Shown: positions 35,518 through 49,760 of the stretch, in pieces
Numbering within the stretch: position 1 is the stretch's first letter
How the letters are laid out: each line of letters begins with the position of its first letter
DNA from: Blastocatellia bacterium
Lineage (GTDB): Bacteria > Acidobacteriota > Blastocatellia > Pyrinomonadales > Pyrinomonadaceae
DNA: 64,000 bases
Direction of reading: 5' to 3'
NCBI GenBank assembly: GCA_003168335.1
Contig: PMSM01000010.1
Coordinates: forward strand, 334,001 to 398,000
Made by a program: the position numbers and the translations under genes
Notes under the pieces: model-generated
The model's input: only the letters and a program-made list of their open reading frames with translations
Database searches by the model: none
What the model was told of the DNA's origin: nothing

Positions 35518-37320
35518 ATGATTCAAAAGAAATTAGCGGTTTTGTTGGCAGCCGTGGCGCTGGTTCTGGCTTTGCCTGCCGGGTCGCGAAACGCGGCGGC
35601 CCAGACGAGTCAGTCGGCTGAAATAGTGCTGGTACTTCCTTTCGAGAATGTTTCAAATCATCCGGAGTACAACTGGATTGGTGAAAGTTTTGCTGACTCG
35701 CTCTCGGCCTTGCTCAATAAACCGGGACTAATCGTGGTGACCAGCGAAGAGCGCGCCGTTGCCTATCAGCGTTTGCGGCTGCCGCTGACGGTTCTTCCTT
35801 CACGCGCGACCGCCATCAAGATCGCGCGCGAACTCAAGGCCTCGATGATCGTCATCGGAACCTACAACGTCGTGGTTCCTCCCTCAACCTCGGATGACAA
35901 GTCAACACCTCCGGTCGACAAGCCTTTGGCCACGATTGCCGGCGAGGCCCGGGTGGTTCGAGTTAATGAAGGTCGGATGGCCGGCGATATTTTTGACGGA
36001 GCCTGGGCACCTCGCGTGTATGACTTCAGCGACCAAGTGACAAATCTGCAAAGGCTGCACGGAGAACTTGCCTATCAGATCCTGTTCCAGCGGGACAAGG
36101 CACTTTCGTTTTCGCGAAATCAGTTAATCCAGGAGGCCACTAAGGTGCCGCCGCAGGCGTACGAGGCGCTTCAGAAAGGGCTGCTCAGCCCAGAACGTGA
36201 CCCGACGAGGGCCATCTACTTCAAGAACGCCCTCCTGCTCTTTGGAAAAGAAAACGGCGGCGAGGTCTATCCACAAGCAGCATTCGAGCTGGGACGCTTC
36301 TACTTCAACCAGGCGCAATTGAAAGAAGCGATCGAGTACTTTACGATGCTGAAAAGAAAGGACCTGCACTACGGTGAGGCGCAATTCTATGCGGGTCTCG
36401 CGTATTGGAAGACGGGTGATATCGCGAATGCGCTCGCGACGCTGATTCCCCTGGCGGATGAAAAAGTGATGCCTTTGGTTGGCGTTTACAACAACGCCGG
36501 GGCCGTGTCCGTGGAAGCAGCTCGCGGCGAAAAGAAGCCGGCGGAACAAACGCGTCTCCTGGGCCAGGGGATCGCGCTGCTAAAGCGCGCCGTCGACTCC
36601 TCACCTGATGACACGACGGTCCTCTTCAATTATGCCTACGCTCTTTTTCTCGCCGAGAAATACCCCGAGGCTGCCGAGAAGCTTGAGACAGTGATTGCCG
36701 CCAACCAGAGAGATGGCCAGGCGTACTTTCTCCTGGCCAAAGTTCAGGAGCGCGCCAGCCACGCAGAAGCCGCCAATGCCGCGGACAATCAAGCGCGAAA
36801 ATATATGCCGCAGCAGAGCTATGCGAAATGGCAAACTGACTGGCAGAAGTCCCAGTCACTTGCAACTCTCGCCTTACGCTCGCGCGACGTACTTAATCAA
36901 ATTGACATATCAGACTGGAATCGCACCAAGGCTATCGAAGCGACCAACGCAAACAACACCCAGGATGCGCTGAACAAGATTCGCGATCTATACCAACAGG
37001 GTCGGGATGACGAGGCGCTGGCGGAAATCGGAAAAGTCCTGATAGTCGAGCCGACCAACGCAGAGGCGTTTCTCCTGAGCGGCCGAATAAATCAACGTCG
37101 TGGCGATCAAGAGGCCGCGATCGCGGCGCTGAAGACCTCGATCTTTTGGGATCCGCCACCGAAGATGATTGATGCTCATATCCTGCTGGGTCGGATCTTT
37201 CTCGAGCGTGGAGATCTCGGGGAAGCCAGGAAGTACGCAGCCAGTGCGATTAACATCGATCCCAGCAACCAGGAAGCGATGGCGCTGCAACGGCAGGTGA
37301 CGATGGGCAGACGACCGTAA
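35518..37320 (+). CDS. Exported TPR protein with N-terminal TolB/FlgO-like domain
   Basis: A 600-residue protein with a signal peptide (LAVLLAAVALVLALPAGS). Residues about 35-175 (IVLVLPFENVSNHPEYNWIG, LIVVTSEERAVAYQRLRL, SMIVIGTYNV) resemble the regulatory-type TolB N-terminal fold. TPR repeats occupy the rest (AFELGRFYFNQAQLKEAIEYF, NYAYALFLAEKYPEAAEKLE, EAFLLSGRINQRRGDQEAAI). TPR scaffolding in the periplasm is likely; the partner is unknown. ATG 35518 has AAGGA upstream. It is followed by the tandem structured element. Confidence 0.78.
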   Translation: MIQKKLAVLLAAVALVLALPAGSRNAAAQTSQSAEIVLVLPFENVSNHPEYNWIGESFADSLSALLNKPGLIVVTSEERAVAYQRLRLPLTVLPSRATAIKIARELKASMIVIGTYNVVVPPSTSDDKSTPPVDKPLATIAGEARVVRVNEGRMAGDIFDGAWAPRVYDFSDQVTNLQRLHGELAYQILFQRDKALSFSRNQLIQEATKVPPQAYEALQKGLLSPERDPTRAIYFKNALLLFGKENGGEVYPQAAFELGRFYFNQAQLKEAIEYFTMLKRKDLHYGEAQFYAGLAYWKTGDIANALATLIPLADEKVMPLVGVYNNAGAVSVEAARGEKKPAEQTRLLGQGIALLKRAVDSSPDDTTVLFNYAYALFLAEKYPEAAEKLETVIAANQRDGQAYFLLAKVQERASHAEAANAADNQARKYMPQQSYAKWQTDWQKSQSLATLALRSRDVLNQIDISDWNRTKAIEATNANNTQDALNKIRDLYQQGRDDEALAEIGKVLIVEPTNAEAFLLSGRINQRRGDQEAAIAALKTSIFWDPPPKMIDAHILLGRIFLERGDLGEARKYAASAINIDPSNQEAMALQRQVTMGRRP

Positions 37321-37330
37321 CAAGGATCGC

Positions 37331-37500
37331 GGCACGAGAAGTGCTGAGCATAGGGACGGCTAGCACGAAATGAAACGTGCCCCCGCCGCCATCACTTCTC
37401 TGAGCGCTGCATGCCGCTGCGCCAGCCGCCCGCCGAGCAACCCTACAGTTTAATCCCCCCGAATTGGAACCCGGTCAGAAATGACCGGGTTCTCCCGCAT
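37331..37500 (+). ncRNA. Candidate structured RNA element, copy 1
   Basis: About 170 nt that recurs at an exact 240-bp spacing downstream, with four mismatches over the common length. Base-pairing potential: GAGAAGTG (37336-37343) with CACTTCTC (37393-37400), enclosing GCACG-AAATGAAA-CGTGC (37363-37380), and a distal 11-bp hairpin GAACCCGGTCA-GAAA-TGACCGGGTTC (37467-37492) closed by a GNRA tetraloop. Intermediate GC-rich sequence (GCGCTGCATGCCGCTGCGC) can also fold. No open reading frame of note. No known family is recognised, and the strand is assumed. Confidence 0.6.
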
Positions 37501-37570
37501 TAAGAGTTCATCAATTCCGATTTTTCTTCAGTCATACATTTTAGCCTTCGCAATTCATCGCAGAAGTCAT

Positions 37571-37740
37571 GGCACGGTAAGTGCTGAGCATAGGGACGGC
37601 TAGCACGAAATGAAACGTGCCCCCGCCGCCATCACTTCTCTGAGCGCTGCATGCCGCTGCGCCAGCCGCCCGCCGAGCAACCCTTCAGATTAATCCCCCC
37701 GAATTGGAACCCGGTCAGAAATGACCGGGTTCTCCCGCAT
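37571..37740 (+). ncRNA. Candidate structured RNA element, copy 2
   Basis: The second copy, identical to copy 1 except at about four positions. One change falls in the outer stem (GGTAAGTG against GAGAAGTG), shortening it to five pairs; the GNRA-capped 11-bp hairpin is conserved exactly. The remainder of the gap up to lnt (37741-38167) has a small hairpin GTCACTTTGACAGTGAC near 37888 and otherwise nothing I recognise. Confidence 0.6.
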
Positions 37741-38167
37741 TTAGGGCTCATCGATTCTGATTTCTATTCTGGAATGCTTTGCCAGGCCTTGTCATTCACG
37801 TTGTCAGTCCGGTCAGAGTGGAACTGCGTCGACCGATTGAAGGCGCGCGACGCTAACTCTCGAGCGGTCAGAACGACGGATTTTGTCACTTTGACAGTGA
37901 CGGTTTTTGTCGTTTGACCTCGAATTTGAGGCACTGGCGACTTCCTTTACTTGCCTTCCAGAAAAATCCGATCTTATTTTTTCATCCGCAGCGATGGCTT
38001 CCAGAATTTGCTCTGTTGACCAGTTTCAGGGCCGGGCTCTCGCGGACCCTTTAGTATCGAGATAGCGCTTTGCGCGCAGCAAGCCCGCCGCTAGACTTTG
38101 CGTCCGGTTGTCCCAGCCCACATCTAGCCGCTTAGTGCTACTGCGCGATACTGCTAAACTCGGTGAC

Positions 38168-39796
38168 ATGCACGACGCGGTCGCTGTTGAGGCGCCCAAG
38201 CGCAAGTTACCAGTCGTGGCGGCTGCTCGCGCCAGCGCTCCTACGCTTGCCGAGGTTTCTTTGGTGATGGCTTCGGCGCTTCTGCTGATCCTTTCCTTTC
38301 CAAATTTTGAGCTGTGGCCGCTGGCATGGATCGGGCTGGTTCCATTTCTCCTGGTTACAGCTCGACCTTTGAAAGCTGGGCGCGCCCTTTTGCTGGGTTG
38401 GTTGTGGGGCGCAGTCTTCTTTTATGGAACATGCTGGTGGCTCACGTATCCGATGATTCACTACGCGCATATTTCCGCCTGGCTTGCCTATCCGCTTCTA
38501 GTAGTGCCGATTTCATTGGTCGCCCTGTTCCCCGCTCTCTTCAGTCTGTTCTTGTCTCGCCTGGTCGCGCGTTTTGGTCTCGGGGCAATTTTCGCGGCTC
38601 CGCTCTTGTGGGTTTCCTGTGAATGGGCCCGCTACGAGGTGACGGGCCAACTATGGAACGCGCTCGGCTACTCGCAGGCATTTCACCCGCTGCTAATTCA
38701 GCCCGCCCGCTGGGGCGGTGTGTACGCAATTAGTTTTCTCCTGCTGACCATAAATGTCGCGATCGCTTTCATCGTGCTGCGACGAAGCGCAGCGGCAGTG
38801 ATTCTCTCGTTAGCGCTGCTGATATTGACGGCGCTGGCCTTAGCCGGAGCTTTCGGTCAGGCGATCACCAAGCCGGTTTTGAGCAAGGCAACGAGCACAT
38901 TGGTGATCGCGGTACAACCCTATGTTCCGATGGAGGGATCAGACGACCCAGCTGCTATGGAGCGACTCTTGAATCGTCATCTTGAGCTTAGCCTTCAGGG
39001 ATTGCACAACCAGTCTGCGGATGCGTTTGCTAATCGACTGGTCATCTGGCCTGAGTCGCCGATGAACTTCAGTTACTCGCGCGATCCACATCTCCGCGAC
39101 GTCATTACCAACTTTGCAAGGAGCAACCACACGTTTGTCTTGCTCAACTCTCTGGAACCCGCCCCAAACGAAGGTGGATACAATTCTGCCGTGATGATAA
39201 ATGAGGAGGGTCGGATCGTGGCGCAGTATGATAAAATCCGCCTGATGCCTTTTGGCGAGTACGTGCCGCTGCCCCACTGGCTACCGGGCGCGAGTTCGGT
39301 ACGCGGAATCGTCGGCGATTTCACGCCCGGCAGGTCATATACGCTGATGCCCCTCGGCGCTTTTCGTGCCGGGGTTTTTATTTGTATCGAGGCCGCTCAT
39401 CCCGGAGTTGCCCGCGCATTCACCGGAGCAGGAGCCGAGGTGCTGATTAATATTTCAAACGACGGATACCTCGGACCAACTCCGGTGATGCGACAGCATC
39501 TGGCCAATGCCATCTTTCGCGCCGTCGAGAATAATCGGCTGTTGCTGAGGGTGACCAATAACGGTATCTCGGCTTACATCGACCCGAGCGGCAAAGTGAT
39601 GGAAGAAACATCAGGTTTCGAGGCGACTGTTCGCGCTTGGCCGGTGCGCCAAAATACGGAAGCCAGGACTTTCTATACGGCCCATGGCGACCTGCTCGCC
39701 TATGCCTGCGCATTAATTACTTTGGGTCTTATTTCGGCCACTTTCATGACCAGGCGGAAGAGATTTAGGAATTCGGTGTCCGAAGCCCGACCGTAA
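38168..39796 (+). CDS. lnt: Apolipoprotein N-acyltransferase
   Basis: Lnt adds the third acyl chain to lipoproteins in the cytoplasmic membrane. The 542-residue product has about seven membrane helices (N-terminal cluster LLILSFPNFELWPLAWIGLVP in part) and a nitrilase-type periplasmic domain. Catalytic residues are visible: Glu in VIWPESPM, Lys in YDKIRLMPFGEYVPLP and Cys in VFICIEAAHP. ATG 38168 is preferred to a TTG at 38108. The TAA stop and last four codons lie inside a palindromic repeat of family B. Confidence 0.93.
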   Translation: MHDAVAVEAPKRKLPVVAAARASAPTLAEVSLVMASALLLILSFPNFELWPLAWIGLVPFLLVTARPLKAGRALLLGWLWGAVFFYGTCWWLTYPMIHYAHISAWLAYPLLVVPISLVALFPALFSLFLSRLVARFGLGAIFAAPLLWVSCEWARYEVTGQLWNALGYSQAFHPLLIQPARWGGVYAISFLLLTINVAIAFIVLRRSAAAVILSLALLILTALALAGAFGQAITKPVLSKATSTLVIAVQPYVPMEGSDDPAAMERLLNRHLELSLQGLHNQSADAFANRLVIWPESPMNFSYSRDPHLRDVITNFARSNHTFVLLNSLEPAPNEGGYNSAVMINEEGRIVAQYDKIRLMPFGEYVPLPHWLPGASSVRGIVGDFTPGRSYTLMPLGAFRAGVFICIEAAHPGVARAFTGAGAEVLINISNDGYLGPTPVMRQHLANAIFRAVENNRLLLRVTNNGISAYIDPSGKVMEETSGFEATVRAWPVRQNTEARTFYTAHGDLLAYACALITLGLISATFMTRRKRFRNSVSEARP

Positions 39797-46608: not shown

Positions 46609-46613
46609 TTCGA

Positions 46614-46700
46614 GTGGCACAGACTTCAGTCTGTGATTTCAAGTGGCACAAACGTTCATTTGCGAATCAACAAAATCACAGACTGAAGTCTGTGCTCACT
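46614..46700. repeat. REP-like palindrome family D, left of RAYT relic
   Basis: The arms GTGGCACAGACTTCAGTCTG TG (46614-46635) and CACAGACTGAAGTCTGTG (46678-46695), in inverted orientation. Each arm is itself an 8-bp palindrome with a 2-base centre (CACAGACT-TC-AGTCTGTG). The right end touches the stop codon of the transposase relic. Confidence 0.9.
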
Positions 46701-46987
46701 TAGGTCAATGCCGCAAAATCATTAAATCCTCGACGCTTTCTTTCTGAAGCCGAAGACCATGGCCAATCCTCGGCCATCTTCACCAAGCCAGCCTTAACCG
46801 GGTTATTCTCTATGTAATCGACGATGCGAGAGAACTCGGCTCGGTCGCGAGACCAGTGGTCAAACGATTCGTCTTGGCAAAATGGACTTCCTGTTCGTTC
46901 GAGCAGTCGATTAGCGGGAGACTTCGGTGATAGAAGGATCTTGTTGACTCGTTCATTCTTACTGAAGTTATGAGCTTGAGTTTGTCG
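46700..46987 (-). pseudogene. REP-associated tyrosine transposase (RAYT) remnant, C-terminal end only
   Basis: On the minus strand a 95-codon stretch, open to an in-frame TAG at 46990, ends in TAA at 46700. It reads KSPANRLLERTGSPFCQDES, FDHWSRDRAEFSRIVDYIEN, NPVKAGLVKMAEDWPWSS. This is the conserved C-terminus of Y1/HUH-family RAYT transposases that mobilise REP palindromes. The HUH motif and catalytic Tyr, which lie N-terminal, are missing and no start codon is present, so it is a relic. Both sides carry family D palindromes. Confidence 0.85.
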
Positions 46988-46998
46988 CTACTTCATAT

Positions 46999-47020
46999 CA
47001 CAGACTGAAGTCTGTGCCAC
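46999..47020. repeat. REP-like family D arm, right of RAYT relic
   Basis: TCACAGACTGAAGTCTGTGC CAC starts 46999. It sits within the stop-codon end of the comEC side, so the relic is bracketed by palindromes in a RAYT-like arrangement. Confidence 0.88.
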
Positions 47021-47024
47021 GTCA

Positions 47025-49760
47025 CTAACGCACAAACGTGCTCACATTCAAGACGTGTCCGTCCGTCACAACTGAAATTGTTCCTCGCTGACCGGTGGTC
47101 ATAACTTCGGCGCCGCTCGCGCGCCAGCGCTCGACTACCTCTTTGTTGGGATGGCCAAACATAGAGGTGCGGCCGACTGAGATAATCGCCAGCGACGGAT
47201 GCGCGGCCGCCACGAACGCCTCGATTGAAGAGGTCCGGCTGCCATGGTGTGCGACCTTGACGAGATCACTCCTGAGACCGATTCCCTCTCGCAGAACTGC
47301 CGCCTCTCCCTGCTTCTCGATGTCTCCAGTCAATAAGAGACTTTTATCTCCATAGCGGACCAGCAGCATTATCGAATCGTTGTTCCGGGAAGGCGCGTTT
47401 TCATCTCTGCTGGGAGGAGGCCAGAGCACTTGCGCCGAGACGTCACCAAAACGAAGCACATCGCCGGCGCCAATCTTGTCGACCGGCACGCCGACTTCTC
47501 TCATCGTCGCGGCAAAGCGCACGTACTCGGCATCATCCGGCGGCGTGCGCGCGACCATCGCGCTACGCACCCTGAAATTGCGCACCACGTCGCTCAGTCC
47601 ATCGATGTGATCCGCATCAGCGTGCGTAGCCAGAACGTAATCCACCCCGTCCATTCCGCGTGACCAGAGATACTGCGACACCACGCCCTCTCCGATCGAG
47701 CGCGTGTCGCGCTCAAAGACCTGCTCAGCCTCGACATCGTCTGCGTTACTCTGATTGATGTTCGGACGCCCGCCGCCATCGACCAGCATTGTCGTCCCAT
47801 CCGGCATCGTCAGCAGGGCCGAATCGCCCTGGCCTACATCCAGAAAGTCGACGTGAAGTTTGCCATCTGGCCGCACGGCGCTGAGAGGATGCAGAACGAT
47901 CACAGACAGCAGCACCACAAACGCAGCGCCGGCGAGGCGAAACCTTCTGACCGAAACCATCCCGCTATTTGCCCCGCTGATAAAAGCAGGACGCAGCGGG
48001 TCCCAGCTTCCCAGTGCCAGAACCAGGAAACCGAGCAGCGGATAATAAAGAACGTAGACGGCGCCGGACCAACCGGCATAATGTGGCAACCGAATCGAAG
48101 CGACGCTGAAATGCGTGAAGGGATCTACCAGATGAATCATCATCCAGTTGGTTTTCTCAGTCAGCACAATTAGCGGCGACGCCAACCACAGACTCAGATG
48201 CGCGACGGCCACTGCCGCGAGGGCGACGAATGCCAGGGCCGCCATCAAAACGCCCACAAAGATATTGAGCGCGAGCGAGGCTATGGAAAGACGGTGAAAG
48301 TAAATCACCATCAGCGGCAGCAGTCCGATTTGCACGCTGGCCGAAACCACGACCGCGGCGCACGCAAAGCGAAAGAGCCTCTGTATGTGCCACCGCTCGA
48401 GCCTGGCCGCGATCGACGTCTTGAACAGCCTGTAACTAATGTTTGACGCCGCGATTTCCGCACGCCACTCCCGCTCGCTCCAAAACAGCGCTTCTGAAAG
48501 GACGCGGAACCAACCGGGGCCCGCCGGCGGGTAAGGCGTCTCGCGCGTCGGCCTCCAGGAACCAACGCGCTGCATTCTCTGCATGACCGGAACGGCGAGC
48601 AAGACAATTGCCAGCACCGAAAGAAAAGTTAACTGAAACGATGGATCGAAGAGATTCTCGGGCTGCCAAACAAGCAGCGCCAGGGCCGAGGCCCCGATTA
48701 CGTTCAGCGAGTTCGTCCGTCGCCGAACGACCGGAGCAAATACCACCAGCGTAAACATCAGGGCGGCGCGCGCAACAGAAGGATCGCCTCCCACGGCGAT
48801 CGTGTATGCCCACATGAATGTGGCCGCGATGACAAACTGTAAGAGTTTGCGCCTGGTCAGCCGGTGAGTCACGAAGATCACCAGCCCGCCAATGAAAGCG
48901 ATTTGCATTCCGCTGATAACGAGGACATGAAACGTGCCCCCCGCGCGAAAGCGCTCCGCCGCATCACGCGAAATGTTGTACCGGTTGCCGAGCAACGCTG
49001 CCTCAAGAACGCCGGCCGTCTCCGCTGAAAACCTGGCGGCGAATTCATGCTGCAATTGTTCGCGCCACTGGTAAATCCACGCTAACGGCAAAAACACAAC
49101 GGCGTCATCAAGTCGTTCAATCAGCAAAGGGCTCTTCACCACGCCCGTAGCGTCATAACCTTTGCGTTCAAGATATTCAGTAAGCGGCAAGACTCCCGGG
49201 TTGCGAAAGTTCTCGTCGCGATCGAGTGTGGTCATCACGCGCATGCGGGCCCCGTGACGCAACTCCAGCGCTTCATATTCTCTGCGCACTTGCGGTTCGC
49301 GCACATGCGCCACCAACAGCACGGTCCCGGACGCCTCGCGCACAGTTCCCTTGAAGCTGATCATTTCAGTTTGCAGAGTGAGATAGAAACTGTCCGGCGC
49401 CGGTTCCGGCTGGCCAGAGACAATTCCCGTTAGCTCAACGGGCTCACCGTATGTAAAGCGGCCTTCGTCGTACATTCGCGAGATGCGATCAGGCGCCGCA
49501 GCGCGACTGTCGATGAATGAGAGAACCAGCCCCGCGAAAAGGAACGCTCCGATCAGGAGCCCAGCAGCGATTGTCGTTTTGTTCCTCGCGAGAAAAGCGA
49601 TCGAGAGGAAAGAAAGACTGATACCTATAACGAGGGTGCCGATGAGCACTGACTTCGACCTGGGCGTGATGTAATGCGCCAGCGTGATACCGGCGGACAT
49701 GGCGACTGCCAACACCGCCAGCGGACTGGGAGCAAAGCGAGCCTGTGGGAGATCCGCCAT
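47025..49760 (-). CDS. comEC: DNA internalisation competence protein ComEC/Rec2
   Basis: A 911-residue membrane channel for DNA uptake. It opens with helices near ITLAHYI and SVLIGTLVIGISLSFLSI, has a DUF4131 segment with GTVLLVAHV, a Competence domain with VLEAALLGNRYNIS and HVLVISGMQIAFIGG, and a C-terminal beta-lactamase-fold domain with VDFLDVGQGDSALL, YVLATHADADHIDG and VKVAHHGSRTSS. All expected parts are present, so this is a full-length protein. A ComEA-like lipoprotein is encoded 3 kb away on the other strand. Confidence 0.95.
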   Translation of the reverse strand: MADLPQARFAPSPLAVLAVAMSAGITLAHYITPRSKSVLIGTLVIGISLSFLSIAFLARNKTTIAAGLLIGAFLFAGLVLSFIDSRAAAPDRISRMYDEGRFTYGEPVELTGIVSGQPEPAPDSFYLTLQTEMISFKGTVREASGTVLLVAHVREPQVRREYEALELRHGARMRVMTTLDRDENFRNPGVLPLTEYLERKGYDATGVVKSPLLIERLDDAVVFLPLAWIYQWREQLQHEFAARFSAETAGVLEAALLGNRYNISRDAAERFRAGGTFHVLVISGMQIAFIGGLVIFVTHRLTRRKLLQFVIAATFMWAYTIAVGGDPSVARAALMFTLVVFAPVVRRRTNSLNVIGASALALLVWQPENLFDPSFQLTFLSVLAIVLLAVPVMQRMQRVGSWRPTRETPYPPAGPGWFRVLSEALFWSEREWRAEIAASNISYRLFKTSIAARLERWHIQRLFRFACAAVVVSASVQIGLLPLMVIYFHRLSIASLALNIFVGVLMAALAFVALAAVAVAHLSLWLASPLIVLTEKTNWMMIHLVDPFTHFSVASIRLPHYAGWSGAVYVLYYPLLGFLVLALGSWDPLRPAFISGANSGMVSVRRFRLAGAAFVVLLSVIVLHPLSAVRPDGKLHVDFLDVGQGDSALLTMPDGTTMLVDGGGRPNINQSNADDVEAEQVFERDTRSIGEGVVSQYLWSRGMDGVDYVLATHADADHIDGLSDVVRNFRVRSAMVARTPPDDAEYVRFAATMREVGVPVDKIGAGDVLRFGDVSAQVLWPPPSRDENAPSRNNDSIMLLVRYGDKSLLLTGDIEKQGEAAVLREGIGLRSDLVKVAHHGSRTSSIEAFVAAAHPSLAIISVGRTSMFGHPNKEVVERWRASGAEVMTTGQRGTISVVTDGHVLNVSTFVR

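Follow-up and report, generated by a model that had tools for sequence, protein, structure and literature searches.

Several homologous small RNAs driven by sigma-54, the Qrr RNAs of Vibrio, act by pairing with their targets. The enterobacterial GlmY and GlmZ are a homologous pair of small RNAs, of which GlmY has a sigma-54 promoter under the QseE/QseF two-component system and is tied to the supply of the cell envelope (PMC7073468). CrcZ and CrcY of Pseudomonas are multi-copy small RNAs that have an RpoN promoter and repeated unpaired motifs (PMC4063720). The tandem element described here, from a Blastocatellia bacterium of the family Pyrinomonadaceae, is like GlmY/GlmZ in forming a homologous small RNA pair with a predicted sigma-54 promoter, but it has no sequence or Rfam match to them and its copies are in tandem next to lnt. 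The sigma-54 promoter, the multiple copies and the repeated unpaired motifs are shared with CrcZ/CrcY, whereas CrcZ carries A-rich Hfq-binding repeats and the present RNA is C-rich and has a complementary small RNA in one clade. It differs from Qrr in the lack of an Rfam match and in structure, phylum and genomic context. The complementary small RNA, found in a sister clade and directed at a conserved block, recalls sponge (anti-sRNA) RNAs, except that the partner is predicted to be a conserved gene in its own right, equipped with a promoter and a terminator, and not a processed fragment. The element combines a -24/-12 motif at a fixed distance (112/116 copies), a genome that encodes sigma-54 and a conserved non-coding structure. 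By the tests run, it is a putative new family of sigma-54-dependent small RNA, outside GlmY/GlmZ, Qrr and CrcZ.

The window, a 64,000-nt stretch of contig PMSM01000010.1, contains two 170-nt copies of the element (37331-37500 and 37571-37740) at an exact 240 bp period. The copies are 97.6% identical over the 170 nt, and their four differences agree with the original prediction. Weak similarity continues for 40 nt into the spacer, giving 210 nt at 92%. The repeat lies between the gene for a 600-aa TPR protein and lnt, all on the plus strand (Table 1). No copies besides these two turned up when all 5.16 Mb of the genome (G000) were searched. The repeat is probably a pair of small regulatory RNA genes of a kind not described before, both with a sigma-54 promoter of their own.

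Relatives were found by BLAST in most genomes of Pyrinomonadaceae. A covariance model, R1, was built from 55 copies of the RNA part only, leaving the promoter out, and it matched 103 of 119 Pyrinomonadaceae genomes, including 66 of the 69 near-complete ones, for a yield of 118 distinct RNA copies. In lnt-anchored loci from named genomes, including Pyrinomonas methylaliphatogenes K22 (L053), the RNA is located just upstream of lnt. In a 199-genome sample of Acidobacteriota, searched with stricter filters, matches were confined to the 14 Pyrinomonadaceae genomes, and in a sample of the class, searched at E-values up to 1, there were only marginal, non-significant matches outside the family. The homologues sought in Blastocatellia exist, within this one family. 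No Rfam 15 family was matched at gathering or relaxed thresholds, including 6S, Qrr and GlmY/GlmZ, in the Rfam search that had originally been proposed. 6S RNA was rejected as an identity; the 6S RNA of the window's genome is a separate locus. We did not find a paper describing small RNAs in Blastocatellia in the open-access literature.

Table 1. Features of the tandem small RNA locus (positions in the window).
Feature	Position	Strand	Basis
Upstream TPR-repeat protein gene, conserved neighbour	35518..37320	+	Pfam TPR; upstream of 104/118 copies
Putative sigma-54 -24/-12 promoter, copy 1 (CGGCACGAGAAGTGCT)	37330..37345	+	Aligned to promoter block of 116 relatives
Small RNA copy 1, predicted +1 at 37356	37356..37504	+	Covariance model match, 159 bits
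Copy 1 hairpin P1, CGGC/GCCG outer and CACG/CGTG inner	37357..37388	+	CACGG/CCGTG vs CTTGA/TCAAG between clades
Copy 1 hairpin P2, GCGCTGC/GCTGCGC	37401..37424	+	Compensatory changes
Copy 1 unpaired C-rich conserved block, candidate pairing region	37425..37466	+	Invariant unpaired columns
Copy 1 hairpin P3, 11 bp, GAAA loop, terminator-like	37467..37492	+	Compensatory change in 8/10 pairs
Putative sigma-54 promoter, copy 2 (TGGCACGGTAAGTGCT)	37570..37585	+	One of two exact TGGCACGN5TGCW matches in genome
Small RNA copy 2, predicted +1 at 37596	37596..37744	+	Covariance model match, 160.9 bits
Copy 2 unpaired C-rich conserved block	37665..37706	+	As copy 1
Copy 2 hairpin P3, terminator-like	37707..37732	+	As copy 1
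lnt, apolipoprotein N-acyltransferase, conserved downstream neighbour	38108..39796	+	Pfam LNT_N and CN_hydrolase; downstream of 109/118 copies

The original prediction made no mention of a sigma-54 promoter. The alignment upstream of the RNA is unconserved except for TGGCACG-N4/5-TGCW, which is followed by an 11-nt variable spacer. This block fits the sigma-54 consensus, since GG and GC stand at the right spacing. A -24/-12 motif of the form TGG[C/T]A[C/T]-N6-TGC is present in 112 of the 116 copies with readable upstream sequence, and 111 of these 112 sites precede the RNA by 25-27 nt (~26 nt). As background, TGG[CT]A[CT]N6TGC has 195 matches in 1.8 Mb with both strands counted, the true sites among them. 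The predicted +1 was placed 12 nt after the C of the -12 element, and with this spacing it falls on the first base of the RNA model. The gene rpoN is present in the window's genome and in 68/69 near-complete genomes of the family. The -24 box of copy 1 is CGGCAC, not TGGCAC (first base T to C), with the GG and GC cores intact. The exact sequence TGGCACGN5TGCW (TGGCACGNNNNNTGCW) occurs twice in the window's genome, once at copy 2. The other site (L178, C1:388678-388693, minus strand) is shortly upstream of a 177-aa short ORF (MREPMRSNKRYTNTTF...). Separately, an RNA copy in L020/L047 has lost the sigma-54 promoter (CGTCGCCTGATGTTTT), and this loss may be real or an assembly artefact.

We did not identify a conserved upstream activator site in the window's genus. 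One candidate, GTTCCAAATAGTGTAAC, was rejected because it overlaps the C-terminal codons and the stop of the TPR gene. At the end of the TPR gene in ~40 genomes (e.g., L148 and L026), TGTTCCAAATAGTGTAACT is conserved at the nucleotide level across the stop and 7 nt beyond, ~160 nt upstream of the -24 box. A motif that recurs ~20-30 nt upstream of the -24 box in several genera (L011, L012, L013, L016, L043 and others), AATC-N8-TTTCCAGAAAA, may serve as an activator or bending site.

Copy 1 is predicted to fold more stably than shuffled sequences do (z -4.0), and unguided RNAalifold recovered P2 and the 3′ hairpin P3 together with the outer P1 stem. The two clades differ in the inner P1 stem, which reads CACGG/CCGTG in one of them and CTTGA/TCAAG in the second. 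With this inner stem included, the main alignment has 28 pairs and 95.9% of its cells are paired; 16 of the 28 pairs show compensatory change on both sides, and none of 500 shuffles matched the alignment in pairing, in compensatory counts or in covariation score. Another 45 copies, known only via the model, made up a second alignment, which gave the same fold de novo with compensatory change in 16/29 pairs, although the covariance model itself selects for the fold to some extent. The three hairpins are thus supported by compensatory changes in two separate alignments. Where the P3 tetraloop is present (38 copies) it is a GNRA loop, varying among GAAA, GCAA, GCGA, GUGA and GUAA. The sequence CTCCYGCNTTTT follows P3, and a U-run occurs only 6-8 nt after the conserved stem, so that P3 is a candidate intrinsic terminator at most. 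The folded small RNA pair without a protein frame that was originally proposed passes the covariation test, and the hairpins named there are present and conserved: GCACG/CGTGC, the GC-rich one in the middle, and the 11-bp stem with its GAAA loop. The 8-bp outer stem is a chance match within the promoter. It forms in copy 1 only, where it pairs the promoter with the RNA, and since promoter-RNA pairing across 113 relatives is no better than with random partners, the stem does not belong to the structure.

Between P2 and P3, the sister-clade RNA has an unpaired block that is almost invariant (ACCUUCCGAGCGUUCCUUCAGUUGUCC), and a search of sister-clade genomes for its complement found intergenic sites. 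Most are located 8-12 kb downstream on the opposite strand, by the comEC 3′ end and usually after purH. Each of 29 genomes carries there a predicted gene of ~65 nt, with a sigma-70-like promoter (TTGACA-N17-TAWAAC), a short 5′ tail, and a terminator hairpin with a U-run. These loci are unannotated (L230:8732-8845 on the minus strand, L280, L282, L239, L243 and ~24 other genomes) and matched no Rfam family. The partner is complementary to the conserved block over 17-28 nt. The predicted duplex with the sigma-54 RNA of the same genome has -29 to -51 kcal/mol in 24/25 genomes tested, compared with ~-18 kcal/mol for shuffled partners (mean z -7.3; z below -5 in 24/25), and the single exception is a mis-picked segment. 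The duplex would cover CCGAGCGUUCCUUCAGUUGUCC. No strict covariation between partner and block was seen; the partner differs at a few positions with no matching change in the block, which is invariant. The complementarity between the two small RNAs speaks for action by base pairing, the mode that we regard as best supported; direct support from sequence is confined to the sister clade. The surroundings of comEC in the window (comEC 47025-49760, minus strand) showed no such partner, and none was seen there in related genomes whose RNA is of the window's type. The only exact 14-mer complements of the block in the window's genome are the copies themselves, and searches of the window and, downstream, of related genomes with the same RNA type (a seven-genome set, the last two left out) gave weak, mostly coding-looking matches. 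The intergenic region next to the comEC homologue in the window (46613-47018) contains several copies of the palindrome CACAGACTGAAGTCTGTG.

The C-rich block can also be read as bait for a protein. Its repeated, highly conserved and unpaired motifs (CCGCC or CCUUCC) would then sequester an RNA-binding protein in a CrcZ- or Csr/Rsm-like manner, as the sigma-54-driven CrcZ does with Hfq (PMC4063720). Titration would not require what the sister clade shows, a block whose complement, over 17-28 nt, lies in a second conserved small RNA, and we consider titration unlikely. Our preferred reading, which we hold with reasonable confidence, is that these are sigma-54-driven tandem small RNAs whose C-rich block would pair with targets in trans.

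The position of the RNA is very constant. On the same strand, 109 of the 118 copies are upstream of lnt, usually 250-400 nt before it, and the TPR gene is the upstream neighbour of 104. Such tight synteny is unusual for a purely trans-acting RNA and counts against the preferred reading. It speaks for the regulatory leader first suggested for lnt, in which the element would be a 5′ untranslated region whose last hairpin attenuates lnt transcription. However, the element is neither confined to the 5′ region of lnt nor conserved up to the gene: identity to relatives is 83-97% in the RNA and drops to 56-63% in the next 300 nt, against a shuffled baseline of 53%. The lnt start shows no peak of complementarity to the RNA, the 3′ end is terminator-like, and each of the two tandem copies carries its own predicted promoter. 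In several genomes, extra copies with unrelated neighbours, away from lnt, have promoter and fold intact (L117, L118, L119, L120 and L136); two further copies away from lnt are diverged (L123) or degenerate (L125). Retention of the promoter in such distant paralogues points to a small RNA that is autonomous and acts in trans, and a leader is accordingly not favoured; we give it a small chance. L117, L118 and L136 (position 3001 on) share a 3′ hairpin of another type (GAAGCCCG...CGGGCTTCTCGCCTTTT) and form a subtype among the paralogues.

A short mRNA for a small protein is highly improbable. One frame is open for 25 codons in 97/115 copies, as expected of C-rich sequence, but there is no conserved start codon or reading frame (core-spanning ORFs occur in 48/115 copies, in mixed frames and with different starts), core indels are not in threes, and the stems covary. 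In the tree, the window's two copies are sisters (100/95) that join the single copy of G004, and the tandem pair of G005 is a separate duplication event. In other genera the upstream copies are orthologous across species, as are the downstream copies, and therefore older tandem pairs persist there. The 11-nt promoter spacer differs between species and is identical in the window's two copies, which fits recent duplication or gene conversion. Of the recently duplicated mobile unit that was also considered originally, the recent duplication stands and the mobility does not; the near-identity of the tandem copies would suit a mobile or repeat element, which is already contradicted by the synteny fixed across Pyrinomonadaceae and by the presence of only two copies in the genome, leaving it a negligible chance.

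Under the preferred reading, trans-acting RNAs from sigma-54 promoters, each repeat would be the gene for a small RNA of ~145-165 nt. Sigma-54 RNA polymerase would start the RNA 12 nt after the -12 element when a putative enhancer-binding activator is switched on. The RNA would fold into two hairpins, a C-rich single-stranded block and the terminator-like 3′ hairpin, and would pair in trans with its targets through the block; hfq is encoded in the window's genome. Near-identical tandem copies may raise the dose, or allow promoters of differing strength, with the -24 box of copy 1 weakened. More tentatively, and with somewhat less than an even chance in our estimate, the family as a whole may possess a two-RNA switch. 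A stress- or nutrient-inducible sigma-54 RNA would be opposed by the ~65-nt sigma-70-driven, near-perfect antisense RNA encoded next to comEC, 8-12 kb away on the other strand; one would sequester or destroy the other, the tandem copies would set the ratio, and the window's partner would have diverged or relocated.

The finding would connect sigma-54 signalling with a locus next to lipoprotein maturation, and the RNA itself may be linked to envelope lipoprotein maturation (lnt). It provides a near-universal RNA of Pyrinomonadaceae, for which a covariance model is available and one host, P. methylaliphatogenes K22, is in culture. In the sister clade it adds a defined RNA-RNA pair that can be put to the test. 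The several separate tandem duplications offer material for studying why such RNAs multiply.
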